Part shown: piece by piece, positions 39,318 to 44,229 of the stretch
Position numbering within the stretch: the first letter of the stretch is position 1
How the letters are laid out: each line of letters opens with the position of its first letter
Assembly: GCF_023276435.1 (NCBI RefSeq)
Contig: NZ_JALLPO010000011.1
Coordinates: 62,001-126,000 of the forward strand
Direction of reading: 5' to 3'
DNA from: Sphaerisporangium perillae
GTDB lineage: Bacteria > Actinomycetota > Actinomycetes > Streptosporangiales > Streptosporangiaceae
Length of the DNA: 64,000 nucleotides
Position numbers and translations under genes: made by a program
The notes under the pieces: model-generated
What the model was told of the DNA's origin: nothing
What the model saw: the letters and a program-made list of their open reading frames with translations, nothing else
Databases searched by the model: none

Positions 39318-39700
39318 CCCCAGCCCGCCAGTCCCGGCCTGCCCCGGCCTGTCCCCGGCCCGACCTGCTCGCCCCGACCCTGCCCGACCCGGCCTGCCCG
39401 ACCCGACCCGACCCGGCTTGCCCGACCCGACCCGACCCGACCCGGCTTGCCCGACCCGACCCGGCCTGCCCGGCCTGCCCGGCCTGCCCTGCCCGGCCAC
39501 CCGGCCCTGCCCTGCCCGGCCCTCCCTCGTCGATGTCGTGCTCCTACGTCTGGCGCCGGGTCGGTGGGGAGGGGTACGGCGGTGTCGGCGCCCTCGTACG
39601 GCGGGTGGGTGATCTCCGTGCCGGCCTCCCCCTCCTGTCCGGCCTCCCCCTCCTGTCCGGGGGTGGTGCTCCTATATCCGGCGCCGGGTCGGTGGGGCTG
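39318..39700. repeat. Repeat-filled 383-base intergenic region
   Basis: No gene is supported. 39345-39525 is a degenerate (CCCGA)n and (CCGGCCTGC)n simple-sequence tract. Then two similar blocks follow, at about 39536-39585 and 39665-39712, both with GGCGCCGGGTCGGTGGGG; the second overlaps the 3' end and stop of the NicO exporter, so the first is a downstream copy. CCGGCCTCCCCCTCCTGT occurs twice in tandem near 39625-39660. Confidence 0.75.
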
Positions 39701-41341
39701 TCATACGGCGCCGGCGATGCCGCGGACGGCGAGGCCGGCGCCGAGGAGGACGACCATCGTGGCGGTGCCGACCGGGGCGAGACCCGCGATCCGGCCGGCT
39801 AGGCCCCTCCGAGCCGTGGCGAGCCTGTCCAGCCGGGCCGTCAGCTTCACGAGCAGCAGTCCGGTCGCCGTGAGGGTGGCCGCCATCCCGATGCCGTAGG
39901 CGCCTACCAGCGCGACACCGAACCAGGTGCGGCCCAGTGCCGCCGCCCCGAGGAGAACGATCAGCGCCGACGGGCTCGGAACCAGGCCACCCGCCACGCC
40001 CAGCCCGATCAACCCGGCTCGCCCGTGCCCCTGCCCCTGCCCCTGCCCGTGCCTGTGCCCGTGCCCGTGTCCGTGGCCTGGGGTGAGGCCTTGGTCTTGG
40101 GGCGGCTCGGGATCTTGGTCGTGCTCATGCACGTGTCCATGCCCATGCCCATGTCCATGTCCATGTCCATGTCCGAGGTTGTGGCCGCGGAGGGCGGACC
40201 AGAGTAGGCGGACGCCGACGGTGGCGATGAGGAGGCCGCTGGCGAGGCCGAGCCAGGAGAGCACCGATTCGCCGGCCACGGAGGAGAACGCGCTGATCAG
40301 GAGCCCTACGACCAGTACGCCCGCGGTGTGGGTGGCCGTGACGGTGGCGCCGACGACCAGCGCGTCGCGCGGGCGACCCCGGCGGCCGGCCAGGTAGGCG
40401 GCCATGACGGTCTTGCCGTGCCCGGGGATCAGCGCGTGCCCGGCGCCGAGCACCACCGCGAGGAGCACGGCGAGCAGGCCGAGCGGTACGGTCAGCGATG
40501 AGGCGCCGATCAGGCCGGTGAACGTCCGGTCGAGCCCCGCGAGCCAGTCCCCGATCGGGCCGGGAAGGGACGGACCGGCCAGCGAGGGGGCGCGGAGGAG
40601 CGGACCGGCCGGAGAGGAACCTCCGGGGGCCGGGGCCGCTTCCGCCGAGCCGGAGGTCGTGACGTTGAGGGTCACCGAGCGCTGGTCGAGCGGTTCGGCG
40701 AGCAGGTCATCGGGATACTTGCGCAGCTCGTCGCTCGCGCTGGCCGACGGCACGCTGGGCCGGTCGAACCGTACCCCTTCGGAGGTGGCGGTGATCTCGC
40801 GCCAGCCGATGCGCCCGCCGAGGAAGGAGTCGGTGAAGGCGACGGAGGACGAGACGGTCGCCGGGGCTGACAGGGCGCAGGTCAGGCGGCTGGTCTCCAG
40901 GCCGCCCTCCCCGGCGGCGTAGGTGTAGGACGTGGCGCCCACTCGCCACTGCACGGCGGTGCCGTCCACGACGAGCCGCTGGGCGCGGGCGAGCGAGGCG
41001 CAGGTCGCGGCGGCGTGCGCGGCGCGTTCCTGCGGTGAGGCGGCTCCGGACCGGTCGGTGTCTACCGCCGCCGCGGCCTGGAGCGTGGGAAGTTCGGCGT
41101 AGTCGACGATGGCGGTGTTCTCGACCTGTCGTGGCGAGACCTTGAGGCCGTCATAGTGGTTGACCGTGAACTTTCCCAGCGGGTGGGCCGCCACGGCGGT
41201 GACTCTCAGCGGGTGGCTGGCCACGACGGAGGCGCCTAGCGGGTGGGCCGCCACGGCGGTGGCTTCCAGCGGGTGGGTGGCTACGGCGGAGGCGCCTAGT
41301 GGGTGGGCCGCCACGACGGCGGCCAGGACGAGGGCGATCAT
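39701..41341 (-). CDS. NicO-type nickel/cobalt exporter with repeated N-terminal export junction and His-rich loop
   Basis: 546 residues. A short signal peptide (MIALVLAAVVAA) is followed by five 10-residue units beginning HPL (residues 13-57); the last, HPLGKFTVNHYDGL, starts the conserved mature extracellular domain (to about 300). The membrane part has the NicO/RcnA signature GAGHALIPGHGKTVMAAYL, six or so TMs, and between TM helices a long His/Gly loop (repeated GH units, then EHDQD and HGQGQG) for metal binding. Probably effluxes Ni or Co. ATG 41341 overlaps the TPR gene's stop (ATGA), so the two are coupled; DUF4331 is upstream in the same set. Confidence 0.85.
   Translation of the reverse strand: MIALVLAAVVAAHPLGASAVATHPLEATAVAAHPLGASVVASHPLRVTAVAAHPLGKFTVNHYDGLKVSPRQVENTAIVDYAELPTLQAAAAVDTDRSGAASPQERAAHAAATCASLARAQRLVVDGTAVQWRVGATSYTYAAGEGGLETSRLTCALSAPATVSSSVAFTDSFLGGRIGWREITATSEGVRFDRPSVPSASASDELRKYPDDLLAEPLDQRSVTLNVTTSGSAEAAPAPGGSSPAGPLLRAPSLAGPSLPGPIGDWLAGLDRTFTGLIGASSLTVPLGLLAVLLAVVLGAGHALIPGHGKTVMAAYLAGRRGRPRDALVVGATVTATHTAGVLVVGLLISAFSSVAGESVLSWLGLASGLLIATVGVRLLWSALRGHNLGHGHGHGHGHGHGHVHEHDQDPEPPQDQGLTPGHGHGHGHRHGQGQGQGHGRAGLIGLGVAGGLVPSPSALIVLLGAAALGRTWFGVALVGAYGIGMAATLTATGLLLVKLTARLDRLATARRGLAGRIAGLAPVGTATMVVLLGAGLAVRGIAGAV
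41178..41327. repeat. Five 30-bp in-frame repeats at the signal-peptide junction
   Basis: Units at 41178, 41208, 41238, 41268 and 41298 alternate between two types, giving a 60-bp higher-order pattern. Each encodes HPL plus a seven-residue piece ending in A-x-A-like residues, so each carries both a putative signal-peptidase site and the His-Pro-Leu that starts the mature domain in the last unit. Confidence 0.85.
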
Positions 41342-42657
41342 GAGAACCTCGCGAGGGCGGGCATCGTGGGTGAGAAGCGCGGGTTGCTGTCCTTGACCTG
41401 GGTGAAGGAGTGCCGGGAATCGCGCCGGAGCGCCCGCTCGATCGTGCCCCGGTGGTAGTAGGCCAGGGCGTTGCGCCATCCCCTGGCCGTGGCCTTCTTG
41501 GCGTACGGCAGGGCTTCGCGTGATCTGCCCGCCTTGTGCAGCGCCCAGGCCAGGGCGTCGGCGGCGGCCATGTTGGGGTTCTTGACGTACTCGGCCTCGG
41601 CGTGCCGTACGGCTTCCGCCGGGGAGCCGTGGTCGGCCTCGAACTCGGCCCACGTGAGGTCGTCGCGGACGCCGTTGGCGGCCATGAGCTGCTTCTGCGC
41701 CCTCAGGAGCGTCCACTGCTCGCCGGGATCCTCACCGAGCTTCAGCAGTACCTCGCCGTACTCGACGACGTACTGGGAGAGAGGGAGCCGGGCGACGACG
41801 TCCGCGTAACCGGCGGCGGCGCGGTCCAGCCGCCCGCCCAGCGCCTCGGCCCGGGCTCGGCCGGCCAGGGCGGGGACGAAGTCGGGAAAGGCGCGCAACG
41901 CCTCGTCGTACATCTGGCCCGCGCGCTGGAGGTCTCCCGAGCGCAGTGCCAGCTCGCCCAGGTAGTACCGGCAGTAGGCGACGTCCTCGGGGGCGAACGC
42001 GTCGCGCAGCGCGGCCTCCAGCAGCCTCCTCGCCTCGCGGACGTCGCCGCGAAGTTCGGCGTCGTAGGAGGCCCGGGTGAAGGACGCGACGCCCGGCTTC
42101 AGGTCCATCATGCGGCGGACGGCCTTGGTGGCCCCGGCGTAGTCGCCGAGCTGGGTGCGGGCGTCGGCGAGCACGCCGTAGGCGGCGGCTCCGTAGGGGT
42201 TGGCGGTGATGGCCTGCCGCGCCAGCCCCGTGGCGACGGCGAACTCGTGCCGCCCGGCGGCCAGGGCGGCCCGCCCGGTGAGGACGGCGAAGTCGCCTGG
42301 CGCGAGGGCGGCCGACCGGTTCAGCGCCTCCTCCGCCTTGGTGTAGGAGGAGGGATCGGCGGTGATCCGAGCCTGCTGCACGTAAGCGGCGCCGAGTGCC
42401 GCCCAGGCCTGGTGGTCCTTGGGCAGCCGCTTCAGCCGCTCCCGCAGGCTGCTGACCGTCTGCGCCGCGCCGGCGGGCGAGAGCGGGACCTCCGCCCGCC
42501 CGGCGGAGGCCGGGCCGGCGACGGGGGCGGCGGGGGAGGGGGCCGAGGGTGGCAGCAGGGTCGCCCCGGCCGTGACCGCCAGCGCCAATCCCAGCGCGCC
42601 CGCCCCCATGACGGCCGCCGCGCGGACACGGCCGCGGCGGCGATCGAGGTGGGACAT
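41338..42657 (-). CDS. TPR-repeat protein with N-terminal membrane anchor
   Basis: 439 residues. One TM/signal helix (AAAVMGAGALGLALAVTAGATLL) near residues 12-34, a Pro/Ala linker, then about eight TPR-like helical pairs: AWAALGAAYVQQARI, YTKAEEALNRSAALAPGDFA, GAAAYGVLADARTQLGDYA, VAYCRYYLGELALRSGDLQRA, ALAGRARAEALGGRLDRAA, ADALAWALHKAGRSREAL and a final AYYHRGTIERAL. Likely an extracytoplasmic scaffold for the two co-encoded proteins. ATG 42657 follows AGGAGG. Stop overlaps the exporter start. Confidence 0.85.
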   Translation of the reverse strand: MSHLDRRRGRVRAAAVMGAGALGLALAVTAGATLLPPSAPSPAAPVAGPASAGRAEVPLSPAGAAQTVSSLRERLKRLPKDHQAWAALGAAYVQQARITADPSSYTKAEEALNRSAALAPGDFAVLTGRAALAAGRHEFAVATGLARQAITANPYGAAAYGVLADARTQLGDYAGATKAVRRMMDLKPGVASFTRASYDAELRGDVREARRLLEAALRDAFAPEDVAYCRYYLGELALRSGDLQRAGQMYDEALRAFPDFVPALAGRARAEALGGRLDRAAAGYADVVARLPLSQYVVEYGEVLLKLGEDPGEQWTLLRAQKQLMAANGVRDDLTWAEFEADHGSPAEAVRHAEAEYVKNPNMAAADALAWALHKAGRSREALPYAKKATARGWRNALAYYHRGTIERALRRDSRHSFTQVKDSNPRFSPTMPALARFS

Positions 42658-42799
42658 GGTGTTCCTCCTGGTGGTTCCCGGTTGCTGAGGTGGCGGCGCC
42701 CGCTCTGGGGGCAAAGGTGGCCTCGCCGGTGTCAGGGGCGGGGCGGCCGCTTCGGGGGGGGTGAGGCGGCCGCGTGGGTTCGCGGATCGGGGTGGCGGT

Positions 42800-42830
42800 G
42801 CCGGCTCCCGTCCCGGAGGCGAGAGCCGGC
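42800..42830 (-). terminator. Hairpin after the DUF4331 gene
   Basis: GCCGGCTC (42800-42807) pairs with GAGCCGGC (42823-42830), eight bp, 8 bases past the DUF4331 stop on the minus strand. A second GCGGCCGC pair lies at 42743-42750 and 42766-42773. No T tract; may only attenuate read-through into the TPR gene. Confidence 0.4.
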
Positions 42831-42837
42831 GGCCCGG

Positions 42838-44229
42838 TCAGCGCTGGTTGACCGCCGCGGCGCTGGGCAGCGGGATGTAGGGGAACCTCTGCTGGAACGG
42901 CCTGTCGTTGCCGTTGACCTTGTCGCCCTCGGCCAGGGCGTCGACCAGCTTGCCGGTCAGCGCGGCGCCCTCGACGGCCTGCAGCGAGATGTCCACGACG
43001 TCGTCACCGAGGCGGCGGCCGTTCGGGAAGCCCTGCAGGTCGCCGGCGAGCACGCCGAGCCGGTTGGGGTTCGCCGTGGGCGGGACCGCCATGTTGAGCC
43101 GCAGCATCTCCGAAGGCCTGAACGCCTCGGGATCGGCGTCCTTGTTCAGGATCTGGGAGTTGAGGTCGGCCTTGATCGGCCCGTTGGCCTTGGCGATGCC
43201 GGTCAGGAAGATCTCGACCAGGTCGGCGCGCGGCGTCTTGGGCGCGGGGATCTTGTAGATGCTCTCGATGAGCTTGGGCAGTTCGGGCTCGGTGACCCGC
43301 TTGACGACGGCGGGGATCGAGGCGTCCTTGTCCGGGCTGATGGCGTTGAAGGTGTCCTTCAGGCCTGCGGGGATGACGACCTCGTTGACCAGCGGGTTGC
43401 CCAGCCGCGAGACCTGCCGGTACCCGCCCGGGCTCCACTTCTCGGTGGTGGACCAGATGCCGATGACCGGGTTGCGACCGGCGTCGCCCCTCAGCGCCAC
43501 TTCGTCCTTGGGCACCTGGATGGCGATGCTGTGGACGTTGTAGCCCTTGGTGGTGTCCTGCCCGACCTCCGACAGGTCGCCGCCGTACAGCAGGTCGAAC
43601 ACCCGCAGGTCGAGGAAGAACGCCTCGTCGGCCTGGCCGGCGAAGGTCTGGCCGCCGCCGGGCAGCCGCTGCAGGGACTGCGCGCGCAGCCGGGCGTAGT
43701 CGGGCATCGAGGCGGCGCCGGTGTTGCTGGGGGCCACGACGCCGTTCTTGATGAGGGTCGTCCACCCGTGCTTCGCGTCGAACTTCTTGAGCGTGTACCG
43801 CTGGCGGAACAGCAGGTTCTCGTCGTCGATCGAGGTGACGGGGCCGTTGTTGTACAGGAAGGTGGACGTGCCGCGCCGGTCCTCGTTGCGGAAGGTCCAC
43901 TGGTAGGTGACGTCCGGCAGCCCGTTGCCGTTGTTGTCGATCTTGATGTTGTAGCGGGAGCGGGTGTCGAAGGTGTAGAAGTTCGGCCCGCCCGTCGGCT
44001 CCTCGAACGGGATCCAGTTGGCCATCAGCGTGACGGTGTCGGGCTTGTCGGGGCTGACGAAGGCGTACACATCGGTGTTGTCGTTGCGAGGGTCGCCGGC
44101 GATGAGCGGGGCCTCGCGGTGGGAGGACGCGCCACCGGGCTCGGGGCGCAGGAGGGTGAGCGAGGAGGCGGCCAGCGCCCCCACGATCCCCAGCGCGATC
44201 AGGGCTCGCCGGTTGATCCGGAGCTCCAT
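42838..44229 (-). CDS. DUF4331 exported protein
   Basis: 463 residues. Signal or anchor segment LIALGIVGALAASSLTLL, then the family's hallmark ASSHREAPLIAGDPRNDNTDVYAFV. Other DUF4331 blocks are kept (NWIPFEEPTGGPNFYTFD, VTYQWTFRNEDRRG, FLDLRVFDLLYGG, GIWSTTEKWSP, RLGNPLVNEVVIP, FPNGRRLGDDVVDISLQA). The protein should face the outside as a beta-rich domain. Its biochemical role is unknown. It heads the same-strand set DUF4331-TPR-NicO, which hints at handling of a metal or a substrate that carries one. Confidence 0.93.
   Translation of the reverse strand: MELRINRRALIALGIVGALAASSLTLLRPEPGGASSHREAPLIAGDPRNDNTDVYAFVSPDKPDTVTLMANWIPFEEPTGGPNFYTFDTRSRYNIKIDNNGNGLPDVTYQWTFRNEDRRGTSTFLYNNGPVTSIDDENLLFRQRYTLKKFDAKHGWTTLIKNGVVAPSNTGAASMPDYARLRAQSLQRLPGGGQTFAGQADEAFFLDLRVFDLLYGGDLSEVGQDTTKGYNVHSIAIQVPKDEVALRGDAGRNPVIGIWSTTEKWSPGGYRQVSRLGNPLVNEVVIPAGLKDTFNAISPDKDASIPAVVKRVTEPELPKLIESIYKIPAPKTPRADLVEIFLTGIAKANGPIKADLNSQILNKDADPEAFRPSEMLRLNMAVPPTANPNRLGVLAGDLQGFPNGRRLGDDVVDISLQAVEGAALTGKLVDALAEGDKVNGNDRPFQQRFPYIPLPSAAAVNQR

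Follow-up and report, generated by a model that had tools for sequence, protein, structure and literature searches.

A DUF4331-TPR-permease gene system found in several bacterial phyla and its possible role in extracytoplasmic transition-metal capture and transfer

What would a putatively exported protein of the DUF4331 family, a tetratricopeptide repeat (TPR) protein and a NicO/RcnA-like permease do together in an actinomycete? In this work, we address this question for three genes of Sphaerisporangium perillae (genome size 9.3 Mb), located in a stretch of 64,000 nucleotides of contig NZ_JALLPO010000011.1, positions 62,001 to 126,000 (hereafter, the window). The genes follow one another on the minus strand and encode the DUF4331 protein (42838-44229, 463 amino acids), the TPR protein (41338-42657, 439 amino acids) and the permease (39701-41341, 546 amino acids from its ATG). 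We conclude that DUF4331, TPR protein and permease constitute a real and widespread gene system, undescribed in the literature searched. As to its function, we give even chances to the locus being a conserved system for the extracytoplasmic capture and transfer of transition metals, in which metal held by DUF4331 is handed to the permease. A preliminary description of this DNA had already reported the three same-strand genes, the 4-base overlap of the TPR and permease genes (41338-41341) and the 180 bases separating the DUF4331 and TPR genes (42658-42837), and our analysis confirms all three.

The preliminary description made its proposal depend on the three genes being neighbours elsewhere, and the proposal survived this comparison. 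DUF4331 was searched in 60 relatives (25 with a match) and in 296 Actinomycetota genomes (58 with a match), and every frame of the loci was searched with the profiles of the three proteins. Two samples were evaluated: the best 80 of at least 572 confirmed DUF4331 relatives (genome_contigs; hereafter, the named loci), which consequently lean to close relatives, the closest being Sphaerisporangium with 85 and 84% identity; and 72 places comprising all distinct long DUF4331 matches (E below 1e-100), the window's own included. Some organisms are present in both the whole-genome and the genome_contigs sets (for example L034/L108 and L041/L107). All three genes were found in 71 of the 80 named loci and DUF4331 plus TPR in 79, the sole locus lacking TPR (L116) belonging to a contig that ends 113 bases after DUF4331. 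The nine named loci without permease consist of six with room for it (five Nocardia and one Amycolatopsis) and three at contig ends. Among the 72 places, 43 had both partners within 6.5 kb, 11 had TPR only and 18 had neither. At least two of the TPR-only places are truncated by the end of a contig (L188, L196), and the permease is on another contig in the genomes of L093, L206 and L196. Of the 18 partnerless places, ten encode DUF4331 proteins lacking a signal peptide (flanks being short in some of them), four run into the edge of a contig, one is truncated at the 5' end and the last three code for exported forms. The arrangement of the trio is not fixed: the order is T-N-D (TPR, NicO-like permease, DUF4331) in L129, L132, L136 and L192, the trio is divergent in L031, L207 and L210, and the permease is inverted in L145, L155, L163, L169 and L185.

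At the level of whole genomes, each of the 35 genomes (out of 296) encoding the permease N-terminal domain also encodes the TPR protein, and 33 of them a long DUF4331; the Fisher test for co-occurrence of permease and TPR gives p about 4e-36, a value that ignores descent. One of the remaining two genomes, G216, carries a diverged DUF4331 in the same row as permease and TPR. Conversely, 42 of the 46 genomes with the TPR protein have a long DUF4331, the other four being G216, G075 (considered below) and two genomes of genus g46 with a lone TPR paralogue. In three genus-g46 genomes, such a paralogue (L220, L221, L222) has neither DUF4331 nor permease nearby.

A conserved feature of the DUF4331 proteins is their amino terminus. 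The window protein matches PF14224 over its full length (514.7 bits, E 3.2e-154; gathering score 27 bits) and has a predicted signal peptide spanning residues 1-34, in line with the earlier view of an exported DUF4331 protein of unknown function; no report on DUF4331/PF14224 was found in the literature searched. As judged from its sequence, Ser35-Ser-His directly follows Ala34, so that the predicted mature protein begins with SSHREAP (codons at 44107-44127, minus strand). An ATCUN (amino-terminal Cu(II)- and Ni(II)-binding) motif is a free N-terminus with His at place 3, which grips Cu(II) or Ni(II), and the window protein agrees with this definition at the level of sequence. The predicted mature start is Ala/SSHREAP (the slash marking the cleavage site) in all 80 named loci, and His3 is the sole invariant His both in an alignment of 44 DUF4331 rows and in a more diverse one of 16. 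When 192 loci (96 + 80 + 16) were scanned for the motif, 160 sites proved to follow a signal-like stretch and 30 to follow a start codon immediately, with none elsewhere; Ala precedes the motif in 156 of the 160 signal-type sites. His occupies place 3 in 189 of the 190 sites, the exception being a Tyr in a frame of 142 amino acids (L252), in a scan whose pattern permitted only His or Tyr at that place and only the listed N-terminal motifs; L253, which falls outside the pattern, reads V/SHH. The alignments and the 80/80 count are thus the fairer check of His3, with the alignment rows themselves trimmed at the motif. In the forms without signal peptide, the initial Met (or GTG/TTG) is followed by S-S-H, S-H-H, S-N-H, S-D-H, A-D-H or P-D-H, and Ser, Ala and Pro after Met permit Met removal. 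Two unlike routes, signal peptidase and Met removal, would therefore expose an identical free X-X-His end. An AlphaFold model of mature DUF4331 (mean predicted local distance difference test, pLDDT, 81.7; predicted template modelling score, pTM, 0.88) gives residues 1-11 a pLDDT below 50, so that the conserved tail is flexible in this model; the remainder bears only a general likeness to immunoglobulin (Ig)-like sandwiches.

A second N-terminal His is predicted for the permease, whose mature end would be A/HPLGNFTVN; the reading in the window is HPLGKFTVN, from His53-Pro54 on (codons at 41180-41185, minus strand). The HPLG start is present in 28 of 29 permease relatives (L103 lacks it), and Ala precedes the His in 55 of the 62 permeases found by motif; the motif missed 18 of the 80 loci, mostly permease-less or with a variant start. 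These counts are a fairer measure than the invariance of His1 in the permease alignment, which is partly built in, since rows were trimmed where the match to a query beginning at its His starts. The N-terminal domain that follows holds an EF-hand-like DTDRSGAASPQE. HALIPGHGKT fits H-x-x-x-P-G-H, the motif that in NicO/RcnA-type transporters sits in a transmembrane helix, and its His250, Pro254, His256 and Lys258 are invariant in 23 rows. A THT motif and a loop with 16 His (residues 387-440; 40022-40183, minus strand) are also present, the latter as described earlier. The window permease scored 18.1 bits against Pfam NicO (PF03824; cut-off 27.7) and 84.5 bits against the RcnA model (NF007454; cut-off 195), with a weak DsbD_2 match besides. 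Being below both cut-offs, it is a diverged NicO/RcnA relative rather than a curated member, from which it also differs by the extra N-terminal domain with its predicted His1 and EF-hand-like segment. The NicO type given in the preliminary description is to be qualified accordingly; its role as an exporter is not established, and the permease exchange described below leans to uptake.

The closest parallel to this permease is found in the anglerases Ang-1 (Pseudomonadota) and Ang-2 (Actinomycetota), as presented in the part of a 2025 report that we consulted (PMC12537917). There, N-terminal-His domains on HupE/UreJ-2 permeases bind Cu with Kd of 73.6 and 62.3 nM, one of them binds Ni at 220 nM, and HupE/UreJ permeases are described as nickel permeases. 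The window permease likewise has, by prediction, the feature that defines an anglerase in that part of the report, an N-terminal His that signal-peptide cleavage leaves on a domain facing outwards, itself fused to a permease of metal type. It differs in being NicO/RcnA-like, in giving no PF13795 match in the Pfam search and in being accompanied by DUF4331 and TPR proteins; the main text of PMC12537917 contains neither "TPR" nor "tetratricopeptide".

The TPR protein has a hydrophobic N-terminal segment followed by TPR repeats (TPR_14, 45.1 bits; TPR_14, TPR_16, TPR_17 and TPR_19 all over the Pfam cut-offs), and a hydrophobic 15-mer ahead of the TPR part was detected in 75 of 79 relatives. Its overlap with the permease gene makes translational coupling possible, and in all 64 pairs of TPR and permease genes that share a strand in the genome_contigs loci, the stop of the TPR gene falls where the permease frame is open. 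An apparent TPR-permease fusion in one open frame (L087 and L045) was discarded as evidence, as its TPR matches break into two frames and it looks like a frameshift. Regarding the 180-base gap, the hairpin noted earlier does exist, with 11-base arms (42800-42810 and 42820-42830, 91% complementary) forming a GC-rich inverted repeat, but it is unremarkable: the folding energy of the gap is barely better than that of shuffled sequences (z -1.58; 14 of 200 shuffles equally good), and the terminator scan listed no intrinsic terminator there.

The preliminary description had spoken of actinobacteria, where the locus is common; this scope was too narrow, as similar rows occur on plasmids of Proteobacteria and on one of Cyanobacteriota, and the DUF4331-TPR pair on one of Bacteroidota. 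DUF4331 was located in two partly coincident sets of 35 and 38 plasmid records, of which 16 were opened, and is present on plasmids of Pseudomonadota, Bacteroidota and Cyanobacteriota. The row DUF4331, TPR or unnamed protein, HupE/UreJ permease was observed in Marinobacter, Lichenicola, Comamonadaceae and Croceicoccus; in the latter, DUF4331 is annotated as two frames, and genes for an extracytoplasmic function (ECF) sigma factor and an anti-sigma factor follow the locus. A Nostoc plasmid encodes DUF4331, an unnamed TPR-like protein and a NicO permease with HPLGNF (NicO, 44.3 bits; DsbD_2, 35.1 bits, over the cut-off), a no-signal DUF4331 adjoins HupE in Rhizobium, and the Streptomyces CA-256286 plasmid has the full trio. 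The DUF4331-TPR pair occurs in Adhaeribacter (Bacteroidota) and Miltoncostaea, and Pseudoalteromonas presents the row sigma/anti-sigma, DUF4331, Ig-like and TPR-like. TPR-type matches exceeded the Pfam cut-off in Marinobacter, Adhaeribacter and Pseudoalteromonas (ANAPC3); with the TPR profile of the trio, the Miltoncostaea protein scored 319.9 bits and that of Lichenicola, a weak Pfam match, 34.8 bits; the TPR assignments in Comamonadaceae, Nostoc and Croceicoccus were made by eye. Profile matches identify the permease as HupE_UreJ_2 in Marinobacter and Lichenicola and as HupE_UreJ in Rhizobium, and the type in Comamonadaceae and Croceicoccus is that of the record annotation. Thus, HupE/UreJ permeases (PF04955, PF13795) occupy the permease position near DUF4331 in Proteobacteria and are not of the window permease's family, whose profile matched none of the three HupE/UreJ-type permeases tested. 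The Marinobacter and Lichenicola permeases (A/H start, PF13795), and by eye those of Comamonadaceae and Croceicoccus, look like anglerases as these appear in the consulted part of PMC12537917.

Taken together, these observations suggest the following sequence of events. DUF4331 would be exported, and signal peptidase would leave a free Ser-Ser-His tail that, as an ATCUN motif, may grip Cu(II) or Ni(II). The TPR protein, presumably anchored in the membrane, would keep DUF4331 beside the permease, which would in turn expose an N-terminal His on a domain facing outwards, take over the metal and move it across the membrane, probably inwards. Uptake is favored over efflux because HupE/UreJ proteins, nickel permeases according to the consulted part of PMC12537917, can occupy the permease position. 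The metal-related role proposed in the preliminary description is in part supported by the ATCUN-like end of DUF4331, the N-terminal-His permease and the HupE/UreJ exchange; the metal, its direction and a complex of the three proteins are suggestions. More tentatively, and with some doubt on our side, the DUF4331 proteins could form a large family of ATCUN metalloproteins, with an S/A-x-His end exposed by signal peptidase outside the cell or by methionine aminopeptidase inside it; together with a TPR protein as docking platform and a permease bearing an N-terminal His, they would make up a two-station metal relay of a new kind in several phyla. DUF4331 is a functional orphan in spite of its frequency in the genomes searched; its His3, its fixed pair of partners and the precedent of N-terminal-His permeases make it experimentally decidable. 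If true, the ways in which bacteria of several phyla handle Cu/Ni at their surface would gain a capture step and a scaffold.

The permease could instead act in detoxification as an RcnA-like exporter of Ni/Co (or Cu), with DUF4331 and TPR serving for buffering or sensing outside the cytoplasm, and in many cases with control by an ECF sigma factor and RskA-type anti-sigma pair. The match to the RcnA model and the His-rich loop speak for such a role, which we nonetheless deem unlikely, the score being under the RcnA cut-off and the HupE/UreJ replacements suggesting import. The regulatory evidence is divided. ECF and/or RskA-like genes were found in the flanks retrieved for 34 of 161 loci, and ECF genes are common in actinomycetes, so that their distance to the locus matters; the pair is divergent from and next to DUF4331 in five loci of genus g46, taken for Streptomyces (L032, L088, L090, L187, L189), and RskA_C domains are encoded in the Croceicoccus and Pseudoalteromonas loci, yet the flanks retrieved for the window's own locus (L038) gave no ECF/RskA match. 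We regard as rather improbable a non-metal unit for the assembly of surface proteins, with the TPR protein as scaffold or chaperone, a DsbD/TauE-like permease moving electrons or an organic or sulfur solute, and SSHREAP as a docking tail. Such a unit would account for the proximity of DUF4331 to type II secretion genes (three Rhodobacterales) and to a class F sortase (a Streptomyces plasmid), for the C-terminal transmembrane-like segment of 41 of the 80 DUF4331 proteins and for the DsbD_2 matches of the window and Nostoc permeases, and a tail as flexible as modelled would suit docking too. Docking, however, needs no free amine plus His3, and yet the no-signal forms begin exactly with M/S-x-H; the predicted His1 of the permease and the three nickel-named families found in its position (NicO, HupE_UreJ, HupE_UreJ_2) also argue for metal. 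That nothing more than conserved gene order is involved appears very improbable to us: close relatives do share much of their order, and the named loci are the best 80 of at least 572, but the trio stays together despite varying order and strand, another permease family takes the same position in other phyla, and both the co-occurrence of permease and TPR and the partnerless state of the no-signal DUF4331 forms speak against it.

Several observations weigh against metal capture and transfer by the trio. A permease is missing close to the 11 places with DUF4331 and TPR, some of which lie at contig ends, and neither partner is present within at least 2.3 kb upstream and 6.9 kb downstream of three DUF4331 genes for exported forms (L204, L208, L209). 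All ten no-signal MSSHREAP proteins among the 72 places lack both partners, from which it follows that the SSHREAP N-terminus has uses outside the trio. G075 has the permease (cut at the contig start) and TPR, with no DUF4331 match across about 10 kb on the expected side, and three of the 16 plasmid records lack such a partner (Methylocystis, Streptomyces NBC_00316 and Aliiroseovarius). Nickel superoxide dismutase is commoner in permease-bearing genomes (27 of 35 vs. 57 of 261 others, descent ignored), which speaks for a metal role, but the link is confounded by descent, as all four permease-bearing genomes of family f28 lack the enzyme; the urease link is weak (14 of 35 vs. 44 of 261). Finally, electrons or organic solutes are also among the substrates of relatives in the superfamily of the permease, which gave a weak DsbD_2 match, and the known RcnA relatives are exporters.

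Some further features of these loci deserve mention. The signal region of the window permease contains five 30-base tandem repeats (41175-41323, minus strand) that reiterate the ..AAHPLG.. end of the signal peptide, placing HPL at residues 13, 23, 33, 43 and 53; in the Sphaerisporangium relative L107, a repeat of another kind surrounds HPLSGLTVNHAPAVPA. GC-rich tandem repeats of the CCCGACCCGG type also lie at 39333-39527, between a luciferase-like gene and the permease. Elsewhere in the same genome (L261; G000:C88:78787-79290) there is a separate Ang-2-like HupE_UreJ_2 permease with A/HGFSS, downstream of which a metallophosphatase-like frame was recognized by eye; metallophosphatases are reported near Ang-2 in the consulted part of PMC12537917. 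Concerning DUF4331 itself, L104:8001-10586 encodes a form with a long C-terminal extension (862 amino acids from SSH on) and no further Pfam domain at E 0.01. The no-signal loci L046-L052 and L098 share a neighbour family in all eight cases, whose 106-amino-acid representative gave no match in a Pfam search. On plasmids, a second Streptomyces DUF4331 (L245:16091-18483) adjoins the class F sortase gene, near a molybdopterin oxidoreductase, and in Jannaschia, Sulfitobacter and Paracoccus (Rhodobacterales; L234, L237, L239) DUF4331 has type II secretion genes and an A24 peptidase as neighbours and is possibly a secretion substrate.

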